Source: a virus. Taken from it: 41,980 bases of DNA. The notes beneath the pieces are model-generated. The model worked only from the letters and a program-made list of their open reading frames with translations, ran no database searches and was not told the DNA's origin. This document shows, one piece after another, positions 5,573-10,022 of this stretch. The position numbers were made by a program, and so were the translations under genes. Every line of letters begins with the position of its first letter. The first letter of the stretch is position 1. Location: IMG/VR virus record IMGVR_UViG_3300022744_000422, positions 1 through 41,980 of that record, one strand, 5' to 3'.

Positions 5573-6283
5573 ATGGAAAATCTAAATTTAAAATTAGACG
5601 CCACTAACGGCAGCACATTGATCGTACTAGAAGGCCAAGCACCTAAACAACCGGAAATATCATCCGTAAAAATAACCGGGAATATATATTCGGTAAGAGA
5701 TTACCTTTTGCAAAGAAAACCCAATAAAGAAACATCGCATATTGAGGTCGATCGGGAAAATGGTAGTATTGATTTATACGAGAATCAAAACTCCTCGCAT
5801 AAAATTAATGTTTTTGGCAAAATCGAAATGAACAAAAGGCTTCAATCTTTGGGCATTAATCGGGATAAAAAATATACTCCTAAAGAATTGGTTAGAACAT
5901 TGAAATTTAACAAATTTCTATTTGATAGCCCTCAAGAAGTAGATACGGTTATTGACAAAATAACAAAACTGCAAATAAAAGTTAGTTCTAACATCGGGAA
6001 AACGCAAGCCGATCAAACCGGTAGTTTCAAAAATGAATTTTCACGATCTATTGAAGCAGAAACACATTCTCTAGTAATGAAGTGCCCAATATATTCAGGT
6101 GGGACGTCAGAAAAATTCACCATTGAATTATGGTTAGATGTAGAAGGTCAAAATGTAATCTATTGGTTAGAATCAGTATCCTTTAACGACTTGGAGATAA
6201 CAATGGCAGAAGCATTGGTCGATGATGTGATAGGTGAAATAAAAGAGATTGAGGGATTTGATTTGCCTGTTATTACCAAATAA
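5573..6283 (+). CDS. Conserved phage protein of unknown function, 236 aa
   Basis: The protein begins with a beta-rich segment (residues 1-30), continues with a VRDYLLQRK helix, and contains a central NKRLQSLGIN...YTPKELVRTLKFN region and a C-terminal beta-rich half ending in a helix. From memory this arrangement matches a family common in Bacteroidota phages next to recombination genes, with no known activity. It is the last protein gene before the RNA island. Confidence 0.65.
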   Translation: MENLNLKLDATNGSTLIVLEGQAPKQPEISSVKITGNIYSVRDYLLQRKPNKETSHIEVDRENGSIDLYENQNSSHKINVFGKIEMNKRLQSLGINRDKKYTPKELVRTLKFNKFLFDSPQEVDTVIDKITKLQIKVSSNIGKTQADQTGSFKNEFSRSIEAETHSLVMKCPIYSGGTSEKFTIELWLDVEGQNVIYWLESVSFNDLEITMAEALVDDVIGEIKEIEGFDLPVITK

Positions 6284-6367: not shown

Positions 6368-6507
6368 CGGGAGGTGGCGGAATTGGTAGACGCCAAGATT
6401 CAAGTGAACGCCTAAAATAGCGGTAAAAGGCGACGATAAGCTGTTCTGGTTTCTTGCCACAATACGAAGTACAAGTATTGATACATGTTCGAATCCTGTT
6501 CTCCCGG
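6368..6507 (+). tRNA. tRNA-Leu(CAA)-like gene with expanded anticodon loop
   Basis: The acceptor stem is CGGGAGG (6368-6374) with TCTCCCG (6500-6506), including one G-U. U8 and G9 follow, then a Leu-type D arm (GCG, GAATTGGTAGA loop, CGC). The long variable arm is CAATAC/GTATTG (6460-6465, 6475-6480), and the T loop TTCGAAT has one mismatch in its stem. The anticodon stem CAAGA (6394-6398) pairs with TCTTG (6452-6456), but the loop between them is 53 nt rather than 7. It begins TTCAAGT, which would place CAA as the anticodon. The extra 46 nt fold into nested stems (GAA/TTC, CGCCT/AGGCG). It may be an intron, an expanded arm or a decaying gene. Position 26 also appears to be missing, and CCA is not encoded. 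Confidence 0.6.
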
Positions 6508-6510
6508 CAA

Positions 6511-6702
6511 CCTTTATGATGCGAGCCCGTAATAGAACGGGATCAGGAGCAAGCCTTAATAAAAACGTACATCAATCTTGCTTAGGATGTACTTAGGAAG
6601 CTGACACCGAAATGTAAGCGAATCGCAAACAACATAGCAGATGTGAGTGTGCGAGGAATAGGTTTCATCTGACTGCTGGCATACCAGAATGTATGCCAAC
6701 AT
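6511..6702 (+). ncRNA. Structured non-coding spacer with a pseudoknot
   Basis: The stretch between the two tRNAs has no convincing reading frame but many perfect helices: CCCGT/ACGGG (6526-6530, 6537-6541); AGCAAG/CTTGCT (6548-6553, 6577-6582) interleaved with GTACATC/GATGTAC (6567-6573, 6586-6592), an H-type pseudoknot pattern; CAGATG/CATCTG (6638-6643, 6666-6671); and TGGCATAC/GTATGCCA (6677-6684, 6691-6698). It may be an independent RNA or part of a tRNA-containing precursor. Confidence 0.35.
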
Positions 6703-6775
6703 AGCGCGGTAGAGCAGTTGGTAGCTCGTTGGGCTCATATCCCAAAGGTCGCAGGTTCGAATCCTGTCTGCGCTT
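6703..6775 (+). tRNA. tRNA-Met (anticodon CAT)
   Basis: This is a canonical cloverleaf of 73 nt. The acceptor AGCGCGG/CTGCGCT has one G-U, the D arm is GAGC/GCTC, and the anticodon stem TTGGG/CCCAA surrounds loop CTCATAT (CAT at 6736-6738). The variable loop is AGGTC, and T arm GCAGG/CCTGT surrounds TTCGAAT. CCA is not encoded. The CAT anticodon could also be a lysidine-modified Ile tRNA, but the first acceptor pair being A-U does not settle this. It lies 32 bases upstream of the methyltransferase gene. Confidence 0.93.
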
Positions 6776-6807
6776 CAAAATATTATAACTGATAAACCAA
6801 ATGTCAA

Positions 6808-9324
6808 ATGACCCAAAATAAATATAACACATTTCTAAAGTCTAAGATTATAGCGGCTGAATCTTATGGATTTAAGATTGAATATGAACAACTAAACCCA
6901 ATGCTAAAACCGCATAACAAGGATGTGGTAAAATGGGCTATCAATGGAGGTCGTAGAGCTATGTTCTTAAATTTTGGCCTACACAAAACATTTACCCAGC
7001 TAGAGATAGCAAAGCAGGTAATTGGCAAAACAAATAAGCCGTTCCTGATCGTTTGCCCATTAGCCGTATCGGTGGAATTTAAAAAAGATAAGGCCCAATT
7101 TTATGTCCCGTATGACATTGAATACATTACCGATACAGATAAGATCAACGATTACAATAAGCAGATATACATAACCAATTACGAGCGGGTTAGAATGGGC
7201 GATATTAACCCGAAAAAATTCGGTGGTGTATCGTTTGATGAGGCTAGCATTTTAAGAAACCTTAAAACCGAAACAACAGACTTTGTAATAAAACACTTTC
7301 AAAAAGTACCGTACCGATTTGTAGCCACAGCTTCACCAGCACCGAATGATTATATTGAATTACTTAACTATGCCGTATTCCTTAATGTGGCTTCGCGTGG
7401 GCATTTATTGACAAGGTTCTTTCAGCGAGATAGCACAAAGGCCGGCAGCCTTACACTTTACCCAAACAAAGAAAAAGAATTTTGGCAATGGGTTAGCACA
7501 TGGGCAGTTTTCGTTAGCAATCCTTCTGACTTGGGGCATAGTGACGACGGGTATATACTACCGCCGTTGAATATATCTGAGCATATAGTTGACAGCTTGC
7601 AATCTGAAAGCCATGTGAATCAGTACGGCGAATTGGTAATGTTCCGGGACACTAAAAACGATTTCACCGAAAAAGCGAAAGAGAAAAGAGAGTCTATAAA
7701 AGAACGATGCGATAAGGCCTTTGAATTAGCTATACAATGTAAATCCGCTATCATTTGGCATGAACTTGAATCGGAGCGTCACTACCTTGAAAAGTTATTT
7801 AAAGGGTATAATTCACGTTCTATTTATGGCAGCCAAACCCTTAAACAGAAAGAGGAATTATTATTAGGATTTGCGAACGGTGAATATCCGTATTTGATCA
7901 CTAAAAAGAGGATCGCCGGGTCAGGTTGCAACTTTCAACACCACTGTAATGATATGATCTTTTGCAGCCTCGATGAAAAATTTAACGACTTCATTCAGGC
8001 GGTGCATAGATGTTACCGATTTGGACAGCAGAATGAAGTGAATGTAAAGGTCATCTACACCAATGAACAATATAAAATCATGCAGACCCTTTACCGAAAA
8101 TGGAAACAGCATGAAAATCTACAATCTGAAATGGTTGATATAGTAAAAGAATACGGTTTAAACTCTGAAATAATAAAAGCACAAATGGAAAGACAAATAT
8201 TCGCCAACGGCAAAAAAATTACCTACGATAACTGCACCCTCTACAATAACGATACGGTTATAGTTCATGAAGATCGTAACGAGATGCCGGATAATTCGAT
8301 TGATATGTATTTGACCTCTATCCCCTTTGGAGATCATTACGAATACTCCGATAATATTAACGATTTCGGACACAATCACGGTAACGAGAAATTCTTTGAG
8401 CAGATGGATTTTTTAACGCCTAATATGTTAAGGTGCTTAAAGCCCGGCCGTATCGCCGCCATTCATGTAAAGGATAGGATTAGATATAGTTATCAGAATG
8501 GCACATCATTCACAACCATATCTGATTTTAGCGGGCAAACGGTCGCCCATTACACAAAACATGGCTTTCACCTGATCGGTAAAATAACGGTGACAACCGA
8601 TGTTGTTGCCGAGAATAATCAAACGTATAGACTAGGGTGGAGTGAGCAATGTAAGGATGCAAGTAAAATGGGCGTTGGCTTACCTGAATACATTTTGCTA
8701 TTCCGAAAAGCACCAACCCACATGGATAACAGCTATTCAGATACACCGGTTCAGCATGATAAGAAAGACTACACTAAAGCCCTCTGGCAATTAGATGCAC
8801 ATGCCTACGAAAGAAGTTCAGGAGATAGATTTATGACAGGCGACGAGTTGAAAGGATTGGATATGAAAAAAATAGTTGCCGCATGGAAGAAACATAACGA
8901 ATCATCTATTTACGATTTTCAGGAACATTTGAGGATATGTGAGGAATTAGACGAAGCCGAAAAGTTAAGTTCTACATTCATGACCCTGCCGGTTCATAGT
9001 AATAATGATATGGTTTGGACGGATGTAAACCGAATGAGAACACTAAACGCAAATCAAGTAAGTACTAAAAAGGAGAAACATATTTGCCCTCTTCAGTTTG
9101 ATATCATCGAGCGATTGATAAACCGGTATACTATGAGGGGGGAAACGGTTTGCGACCCATTCGGAGGATTATTCAGCACCGCATATAAAGCACTTGAGCT
9201 AGGCCGTAAATCAGTATCAATCGAATTGAATTCCGAGTATTTTAATGATGGCCTTTACTATGTAAAGGCAATGCTTCACAAACTATCCGTACCCACATTA
9301 TTTGATTTGGCCGAGGTAGCGTAA
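6808..9324 (+). CDS. SF2 helicase - DNA N-methyltransferase fusion
   Basis: The 838-residue protein has two modules. Residues 1-470 are SNF2-like SF2 helicase: Walker A region FGLHKT (56-61, canonical GLGKT altered to GLHKT), motif Ia IVCPLAV, DEAS at 144-147, ATASPAPND at 173-181, and motif VI QAVHRCYRFGQ at 397-407. Residues about 480-838 are an N6-adenine or N4-cytosine methyltransferase in circularly permuted beta order: motif IV TSIPF at 503-507 (instead of the usual S/D/N-P-P-Y/F) and the SAM-binding DPFGG at 783-787, with about 275 residues between that may hold target recognition. No restriction nuclease is nearby, so it probably modifies phage DNA for protection or replication control. 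It begins the replication block after the tRNAs. Confidence 0.85.
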   Translation: MTQNKYNTFLKSKIIAAESYGFKIEYEQLNPMLKPHNKDVVKWAINGGRRAMFLNFGLHKTFTQLEIAKQVIGKTNKPFLIVCPLAVSVEFKKDKAQFYVPYDIEYITDTDKINDYNKQIYITNYERVRMGDINPKKFGGVSFDEASILRNLKTETTDFVIKHFQKVPYRFVATASPAPNDYIELLNYAVFLNVASRGHLLTRFFQRDSTKAGSLTLYPNKEKEFWQWVSTWAVFVSNPSDLGHSDDGYILPPLNISEHIVDSLQSESHVNQYGELVMFRDTKNDFTEKAKEKRESIKERCDKAFELAIQCKSAIIWHELESERHYLEKLFKGYNSRSIYGSQTLKQKEELLLGFANGEYPYLITKKRIAGSGCNFQHHCNDMIFCSLDEKFNDFIQAVHRCYRFGQQNEVNVKVIYTNEQYKIMQTLYRKWKQHENLQSEMVDIVKEYGLNSEIIKAQMERQIFANGKKITYDNCTLYNNDTVIVHEDRNEMPDNSIDMYLTSIPFGDHYEYSDNINDFGHNHGNEKFFEQMDFLTPNMLRCLKPGRIAAIHVKDRIRYSYQNGTSFTTISDFSGQTVAHYTKHGFHLIGKITVTTDVVAENNQTYRLGWSEQCKDASKMGVGLPEYILLFRKAPTHMDNSYSDTPVQHDKKDYTKALWQLDAHAYERSSGDRFMTGDELKGLDMKKIVAAWKKHNESSIYDFQEHLRICEELDEAEKLSSTFMTLPVHSNNDMVWTDVNRMRTLNANQVSTKKEKHICPLQFDIIERLINRYTMRGETVCDPFGGLFSTAYKALELGRKSVSIELNSEYFNDGLYYVKAMLHKLSVPTLFDLAEVA

Positions 9325-9345: not shown

Positions 9346-9831
9346 ATGTCCCACACAATCACAGGTCGCCTCCACCTTAAAGGAGCAACAACACAAGTAA
9401 GTGAGAAGTTCGTAAAACGTGACTTCGTTATCATTGACGATAGCAATCCTCAATACCCGCAGTACATATCGTTGCAGTTAGCGCAGGATAAGTGTTCCAT
9501 ACTGGATAATATCCTCGAAGGAACAACCCTAACCGCTCATTTCAACATCCGTGGTCGTGAATGGAACGGGCCGCAAGGGTTGAAGTATTTCAATACGTTG
9601 GATGCTTGGAAGATTGAGACGGCAAGCCAAACGCAGCAGGGAGGATCGAATCCGCAGTATGGCAATCCAGCGCAAGGCCAACAACAATACAGCACAGCAG
9701 CGCAAGGCCAACCGACCCCGACCGGATCAACAGTACAAGCCCCGGCGAATACATCACAACAGGCAAGGCCAGCAGCAGCGCAACCGGTTGTACATAATAA
9801 TCAACCAATAGCCGACGATCTGCCGTTCTAA
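9346..9831 (+). CDS. Single-stranded-DNA-binding-like protein (DUF3127)
   Basis: Residues 1-85 look like a compact beta-barrel of the DUF3127 type (ITGRLHLKG, KRDFVIID, YPQYISLQLAQDK, LTAHFNIRGREW), a family largely confined to Bacteroidota and resembling the OB fold of SSB. A Q/G/P/A-rich linker (about 95-150) leads to a DDLPF tip, the acidic hydrophobic tail through which SSB proteins recruit replication partners. It probably serves as the phage SSB. It sits 21 bases after the helicase-methyltransferase and upstream of the candidate origin. Confidence 0.82.
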   Translation: MSHTITGRLHLKGATTQVSEKFVKRDFVIIDDSNPQYPQYISLQLAQDKCSILDNILEGTTLTAHFNIRGREWNGPQGLKYFNTLDAWKIETASQTQQGGSNPQYGNPAQGQQQYSTAAQGQPTPTGSTVQAPANTSQQARPAAAQPVVHNNQPIADDLPF

Positions 9832-10022
9832 TCAACAGAATATCACAGTAGCAACGATCAATCGAATACAATGAGCATAACCCCTTCATCATGCCGTACA
9901 TCTGTCCTAAGTGTCTTTTCAGCACTACCTATGTGGCATGGATATAACCCTTTACAGGGGGCCGTTTCAGAGGTTTATGGACAGTTAGACACATTGAAGT
10001 GCTACTTTGTTGCTATAGGTGA

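Follow-up and report, generated by a model that had tools for sequence, protein, structure and literature searches.

A phage tRNA-like gene with an enlarged interior is by its architecture a member of a widespread group of phage RNAs in which another folded RNA replaces the anticodon arm

The tRNA genes of phages are usually read as an aid to codon usage or as replacements for host tRNAs that have been cut. The gene described here belongs to a group widespread among phage RNAs, in which a tRNA frame (the chassis) bears another folded RNA (the payload) in place of the arm that reads the code. tRNA-shaped RNAs thought to work outside decoding also include the pseudo-tRNAs of Bacillus cereus, for which Rogers et al. 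reportedly described non-translational roles in 2012; to our knowledge these have no replaced arm and no payload, and the phage elements differ from them in forming a large and diverse set. In tmRNA (SsrA), as in the phage class, a tRNA-like end domain is joined to a larger folded insert that replaces the anticodon arm, and the RNA is non-decoding. However, the chassis of the phage class is of leucine and other types rather than alanine, and its payloads are short and hugely diverse. In the engineered tRNA scaffold the acceptor, D and T arms likewise serve as a frame, and a foreign RNA replaces the anticodon loop and is protected in E. coli (PMC3753655), whereas the phage class is natural, phage-encoded, equipped with many payloads, subject to cassette exchange and known here from sequence alone. 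E. coli LeuRS charges tRNA-Leu without the anticodon and variable arms (Larkin et al. 2002, in review PMC9976931), its determinants being A73, A15-U48, G18G19, A20a and D/T-loop contacts (PMC9976931), and the A73G change alone turns human tRNA-Leu into a serine acceptor, as worded in the title of a reference in PMC9976931. Such minimal leucine acceptors (PMC9976931) have A73, A15-U48, G18G19 and the D/T-loop contacts in common with the phage class, which differs in being natural, in that its charging is predicted and in that the copy analysed here lacks A73. Neither a description of such a class in the literature searched, the coverage of which was incomplete, nor a dedicated Rfam family was found. 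The class is apparently undescribed; its nearest kinds are tRNA mimics and tmRNA, and what is new is the modular, cassette-like variety of the payloads.

The window, that is the whole 41,980-base stretch of viral DNA analysed, contains BT4734-like and DUF3127 domains as well as helicase-methylase and terminase genes, which together suggest a phage of Bacteroidota. The tRNA-like gene sits in the gap between a gene at 5573-6283 upstream, the protein of which had no relatives among viral contigs, and the helicase-methylase gene at 6808-9324 downstream (Table 1). The structured spacer that separates it from an ordinary tRNA-Met is possibly a separate RNA that would be freed through tRNA processing.

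Table 1. Features of the tRNA-like gene (6368-6507) and its surroundings, in window coordinates.
Feature	Position	Strand	Remarks
Acceptor stem, 5' strand CGGGAGG	6368..6374	+	7/7 pairs with 6500-6506; aligned by Rfam tRNA model
T8, G9 and Leu-type D arm TGGCGGAATTGGTAGACGC	6375..6393	+	Direct reading; Rfam tRNA model
Helix at anticodon-stem position, 5' strand CAAGA	6394..6398	+	Pairs with 6452-6456
Payload, 53 nt replacing the 7-nt anticodon loop	6399..6451	+	Begins TTCAAGT; CAA at 6401-6403
Helix at anticodon-stem position, 3' strand TCTTG	6452..6456	+	Pairs with CAAGA
Variable-arm hairpin CAATAC-GAAGTACAA-GTATTG	6460..6480	+	Ends two nt 5' of T stem
U48, Levitt partner of A15 (6382)	6482	+	
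T arm ACATG-TTCGAAT-CCTGT	6483..6499	+	One mismatch, T6486 x C6496; Rfam tRNA model
Acceptor 3' strand TCTCCCG and discriminator G73	6500..6507	+	Acceptor strand 6500-6506, G6507; no encoded CCA
Structured spacer, tRNA-like gene to tRNA-Met	6508..6702	+	195 nt; fold -50.2 kcal/mol, z -2.19 compared with dinucleotide shuffles
Ordinary tRNA-Met (CAT)	6703..6776	+	ARAGORN; Rfam 67 bits; beside tRNA-like gene

The D arm, long variable arm and T arm recognised in the initial annotation were all recovered in position, the coordinates of the 53 nt between the two stem halves were re-derived exactly, and the CAA of the loop start was located. When applied to the window stretch alone, the Rfam tRNA model matched the gene end to end at 22.2 bits (E 0.011), below its gathering score of 29, and aligned the acceptor, D arm and T arm, with 85 nt left unaligned against 18 expected. 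At default thresholds ARAGORN and Rfam missed the gene and reported the tRNA-Met alone, and neither found a tmRNA in the window. The D arm has a GCG/CGC D stem, A14, A15, G18 G19 and A20a. As in bacterial class II tRNA-Leu, a 7-bp acceptor, this Leu-type D arm, the T arm, the variable-arm position and A15:U48 within the tertiary core are present. In contrast to bacterial tRNA-Leu, the 5-bp stem and 7-nt loop of the anticodon arm are absent, the interior is 85 rather than ~18 nt long, one T-stem pair is mismatched and the discriminator is G rather than the A73 that leucine identity requires (PMC9976931). Relative to the phage class, the acceptor, D arm with GG, T arm (with its one mismatch) and Levitt pair are all present, and a payload replaces the anticodon arm, with a 5-bp closing stem left; the acceptor sequence differs from AGTCAGG, the commonest type in the class. 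The gene belongs to the class by architecture only. The nested stems previously described in the insert proved no stabler than shuffles (z -0.23), and an inner helix, GAAC 6406-6409 with GTTC 6443-6446, is a candidate only.

The extent of the class was determined from a scan of 2.9 million viral contigs, anchored on the end of the Leu D arm (GGTAGACGC) and the T loop (GTTCGAATC), the two set further apart than a normal tRNA-Leu allows, and with the acceptor stem outside the pattern. The window D arm is identical to the D-arm anchor that defines the class. At least 120 stretches matched. Because chance anchor matches were expected, by estimate, in so large a collection, the acceptor stem was used as the test. 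Among the matches listed, a perfect 7-bp acceptor stem was present in 82 of the 95 elements without a D-loop insert, with 52 distinct stems, whereas random swapping of acceptor partners gave 7/7 pairs in ~4%. A general frame detector returned 128 elements of at least 100 nt in 1.44 Mb and 0 in reversed sequence. Further scans were added, one of them at canonical spacing, and the resulting catalogue holds at least 587 distinct tRNA-shaped elements, at least 287 of which lack a canonical anticodon arm.

The commonest frame, with the acceptor AGTCAGG/CCTGACT-A, was found in at least 229 distinct elements. Among the matches listed, four or more of five pairs at the anticodon-stem position were present in 10% of the 229 AGTCAGG-type elements, compared with 77% of other tRNAs on the same DNA and an inferred ~7% by chance. 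A wider extraction gave at least 290 distinct sequences on 172 contigs, with up to 12 per contig, and 166 interiors that fell into 140 clusters among the matches listed. Elements of the class are interspersed with ordinary tRNA genes that bear their own acceptor stems, and range in total length from ~66 nt to more than 200 nt, the short ones being likewise without an anticodon arm. Only three of 84,980 cellular genomes matched the long-spacing pattern, which indicates that the elements are mainly viral. In cultured phage records no AGTCAGG-type element was found, either at 31 nt or as a whole element.

Despite the replaced arm, the core of a tRNA is kept. Among the matches listed, A15:U48 was present in 243 of the 262 A15-bearing elements without a canonical anticodon arm, and G15:C48 in 13 of the 15 elements with G15 and no anticodon arm; this covariation is that of the Levitt pair in a predicted folded tRNA elbow. 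In 152 AGTCAGG-type elements outside the selection imposed by the search pattern, A73 was found in 136, the D-loop GG in 144 and A15:U48 in 110. A helix ending within 3 nt of the T stem was present in 33% of interiors and in 9% of shuffles, and usually ended exactly two nt before the T stem, the position at which a class II variable arm ends; the window gene shares this helix. The Rfam tRNA model recognised one class member (L084) as a tRNA at 36.3 bits, with 68 nt skipped. At ~2938-3028 of L266 (LR756501, a 735-kb phage) lies a tRNA-Leu(CAG) that keeps its anticodon arm intact but has a variable region of at least 40 nt; it is perhaps an intermediate.

The elements also move as units. A 138-nt element was 99-100% identical on contigs with unrelated flanks: in 56 of 66 pairs the element exceeded 90% identity while both 60-nt flanks were below 65%, random sequence giving 51%. 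Between L084 and L161 this element was the sole shared DNA found in the stretches compared. L108 and L114 have a common D-loop insert of ~66 nt and different interiors, whereas L114 and L080 have a common interior with the D-loop insert in L114 only, a pattern which indicates that frame, D-loop insert and interior recombine independently.

Other frames carry comparable interiors. When a class I D arm served as the scan pattern, 37 stretches were returned, 25 of which combine a perfect acceptor with a lengthened interior; nearly all of these 25 are without a canonical anticodon arm, and some encode the CCA end. Cultured phages provide examples. Tenacibaculum phage pT24 (LC168164) has two near-identical genes annotated 'tRNA-Undet' (2790-2868 and 3157-3235 of L265), in which a 23-nt hairpin replaces the anticodon arm. 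Like the class, these genes have a tRNA frame with a hairpin instead of an anticodon arm, and they differ from the window gene in their class I chassis and short payload. The genome paper of pT24 counts just 4 tRNAs (PMC5502841); the 'tRNA-Pro' between the two genes likewise looks non-canonical. In Flavobacterium phage immuto a gene annotated 'tRNA-Cys' (20246-20331 of L260) has a D-loop hairpin and no normal anticodon arm. The DNA polymerases of immuto and of L080, a contig with several AGTCAGG-type elements, share 72% identity. Three further observations were made on individual records. In L027, a viral record with an isolate-type genome number, two expanded tRNA-like genes (9637-9742 and 9834-9936) lie beside tRNA-Phe and tRNA-Glu, and one of them contains a second T-arm-like hairpin, GCAGTTCGAATCTGT. 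Crassphage cr4_1 (crAssphage, L264) has an unannotated tRNA-like gene with a 9-nt anticodon loop at ~1290-1530, with a stretch resembling the 5' end of tmRNA just ahead. A tRNA-rich contig filed as viral (L276) holds a class A RNase P RNA at 2375-2772 (162.5 bits), which is either phage-encoded or a sign that a cellular contig was misfiled.

Taken with moderate confidence, the window gene would encode a non-decoding, tRNA-like RNA, a chassis that carries a payload and a member of this large phage class, and the RNAs of this class probably serve some purpose other than codon reading. A non-translational tRNA mimic was among the readings first suggested, and the comparative evidence supports it for a large class but not as the case of a single gene. 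What the sequences show across the class is a tRNA frame that is kept, the loss of the anticodon arm, payloads that are diverse and constrained by base pairing, and a cassette-like distribution. The outer frame (acceptor, D arm with GG, T arm and Levitt pair) would be kept for the host tRNA enzymes, and RNase P, 3' processing and CCA addition would, by analogy, trim and stabilise the RNA. A different folded RNA would take the place of the anticodon arm and would, as the payload, be the presumed working part, with the same few tRNA frames carrying many unrelated payloads that are swapped between phages as cassettes. By analogy with the minimal acceptors, Leu-type members with A73 may be chargeable by the host LeuRS without an anticodon arm. 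Given that the Leu-type class keeps the LeuRS determinants, leucylation of many members is plausible; for the window gene it is doubtful and the charging state unpredictable because of G73, with the T-stem mismatch adding doubt. A more elaborate proposal is advanced only tentatively, as somewhat short of probable: a natural, modular 'tRNA scaffold', in which frames, chiefly Leu-type AGTCAGG, would carry a library of RNA effectors as ~130-nt cassettes, the effectors being maybe leucylated.

Candidates for the role of the payload are a decoy for tRNA-directed defence, a sponge for synthetases or nucleases and a regulatory RNA; because payloads diversify while the frame stays constant, counter-defence or decoy roles are leaned towards. 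In its specific form, in which tRNA-like ends would bait host RNases or immune nucleases that cut tails or anticodons and the payload would be engaged in an arms race, the decoy role is possible, though on the unlikely side. It is favoured by the constancy of the frame around hypervariable interiors, by the numerous copies that one genome holds amid its ordinary tRNAs and by the exchange of cassettes; however, some payload families are strongly conserved, which would suit a specific binding partner equally.

Decay of an ordinary phage tRNA-Leu(CAA) that acquired an insertion and is now eroding is an unlikely account of the window gene. The T-stem mismatch, G73, the score below the Rfam tRNA cut-off and an insert without a detectable relative are consistent with erosion, but the acceptor with its 7/7 pairs, the D arm, the variable arm and the Levitt pair are intact. 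Across the class, helices vary by compensatory change. In family A1 (six members) an interior helix is 100% paired despite 6 double changes, with three pair types at two positions, a covariation reached in 0 of 500 shuffles; in A2, 4 of 7 pairs of the A1-family helix are changed on both sides between L172 and L206. In another family, with a near-constant payload, acceptor pair 4-69 changes from C-G to G-C and a T-stem pair from G-C to A-U in two members. Two crossing 6-bp helices can form in the interior of this family and are invariant, a possible pseudoknot. These compensatory changes in acceptors, T stems and interior helices strongly disfavour decay as a general explanation, as do near-identical cassettes in unrelated surroundings, since intact elements spread between phages are not what is expected of pseudogenes. 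Decay is thus a possibility confined to the window copy, with its mismatch and its lack of a relative.

Relatives of this copy were sought in several ways. Of those examined among 30 relatives of the neighbouring helicase (L002-L031), most had no tRNA gene at this place, the nearest ones had none, and no match to the element was found, so that synteny offered no direct comparison. A scan for the window acceptor and D arm gave no relative, the sole return being a fragment of tRNA-Leu that precedes a tRNA in L081, and the payload had no detectable relative in the viral contig scans. The window payload and L036 have 11 nt, AAGTGAACGCC, in common, a match dropped as near chance, by estimate, for the amount of sequence compared. 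Scanning for the variable-arm loop beside a T arm brought up three further tRNA-like elements, whose payloads differ. The loop GAAGTACAA occurs in 4 interiors against 0.16 expected; no universal payload motif was found, only weak enrichment of GAAGTACAA and TCCGATAC. As a hairpin loop closed by a C-G pair it lies at 6465-6475 of the window, at 1078 of L043, at 4699 of L056 and at 5842 (minus strand) of L038, and it recurs both within several tRNA-like RNAs and between them. This loop is a possible shared binding motif. Beside the helicase relative, a tmRNA-like gene was seen by eye and not called by ARAGORN in L008 (~7966-8306) and L011 (~8036-8326), running GGGGTCGAAAGGTATCGACAG ... GGTTCGAATCCCGCCGACTCC, with an inner reading frame that would give a tag ending QVSA. 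Right after it ARAGORN places a small tRNA (L008 8312-8381, L011 8333-8403) with a two-base anticodon (ca) and an anticodon loop that is too short.

The remaining readings keep a decoding tRNA. A tRNA-Leu(CAA) with a miniature intron of ~46 nt near the canonical position 37/38, spliced by an unknown activity, is decidedly unlikely. CAAGA/TCTTG with CAA in the loop has the look of an interrupted tRNA-Leu(CAA): a 5-bp anticodon stem brackets the loop starting TTCAAGT, this stem is expected by chance in ~1.3% of shuffled interiors, and a few class I elements (L273, L295) have an anticodon-like loop ahead of the insert. The spliced product would, however, still bear G73, against leucine identity (PMC9976931). 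No group I core was detected in the window region, even at E values of up to 5-10, nor any other Rfam family besides tRNA, and the insert measures only 46 nt. In 16 related loci Rfam found tRNAs and one RNase P RNA only, with no tmRNA match. The archaeal bulge-helix-bulge (BHB) geometry, in which the splice sites lie in two 3-nt bulges that flank a 4-bp helix, is absent by inspection: between the helices CAAGA/TCTTG and GAAC/GTTC lies an internal loop of 7 x 5 nt. Many class members are without an anticodon stem, D-loop inserts occur too, and members of only 70-78 nt have no anticodon arm and nothing that could be removed by splicing.

Phage tRNAs counter host anticodon nucleases, and the CAA in a stem-closed loop would fit a tRNA that still decodes and evades them through an enlarged anticodon arm, as was also first suggested; but this is highly improbable, given G73, the absence of an anticodon stem-loop from most of the class and a 53-nt anticodon loop, presumably too large for the ribosomal A site.

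The preferred reading, a non-decoding RNA in which a tRNA frame carries a payload, has consequences for how phage tRNA genes are annotated and understood. A tRNA frame without an anticodon, present as a large phage set, would form a class of non-coding RNA in its own right. Standard tRNA finders miss its members, or label them 'undetermined' or with the wrong amino acid. The payload families are all candidates for aptamers or decoys directed at host factors, and cultured phages carry examples. Charging of the Leu type, should it occur, would represent natural aminoacylation without decoding, outside tmRNA.
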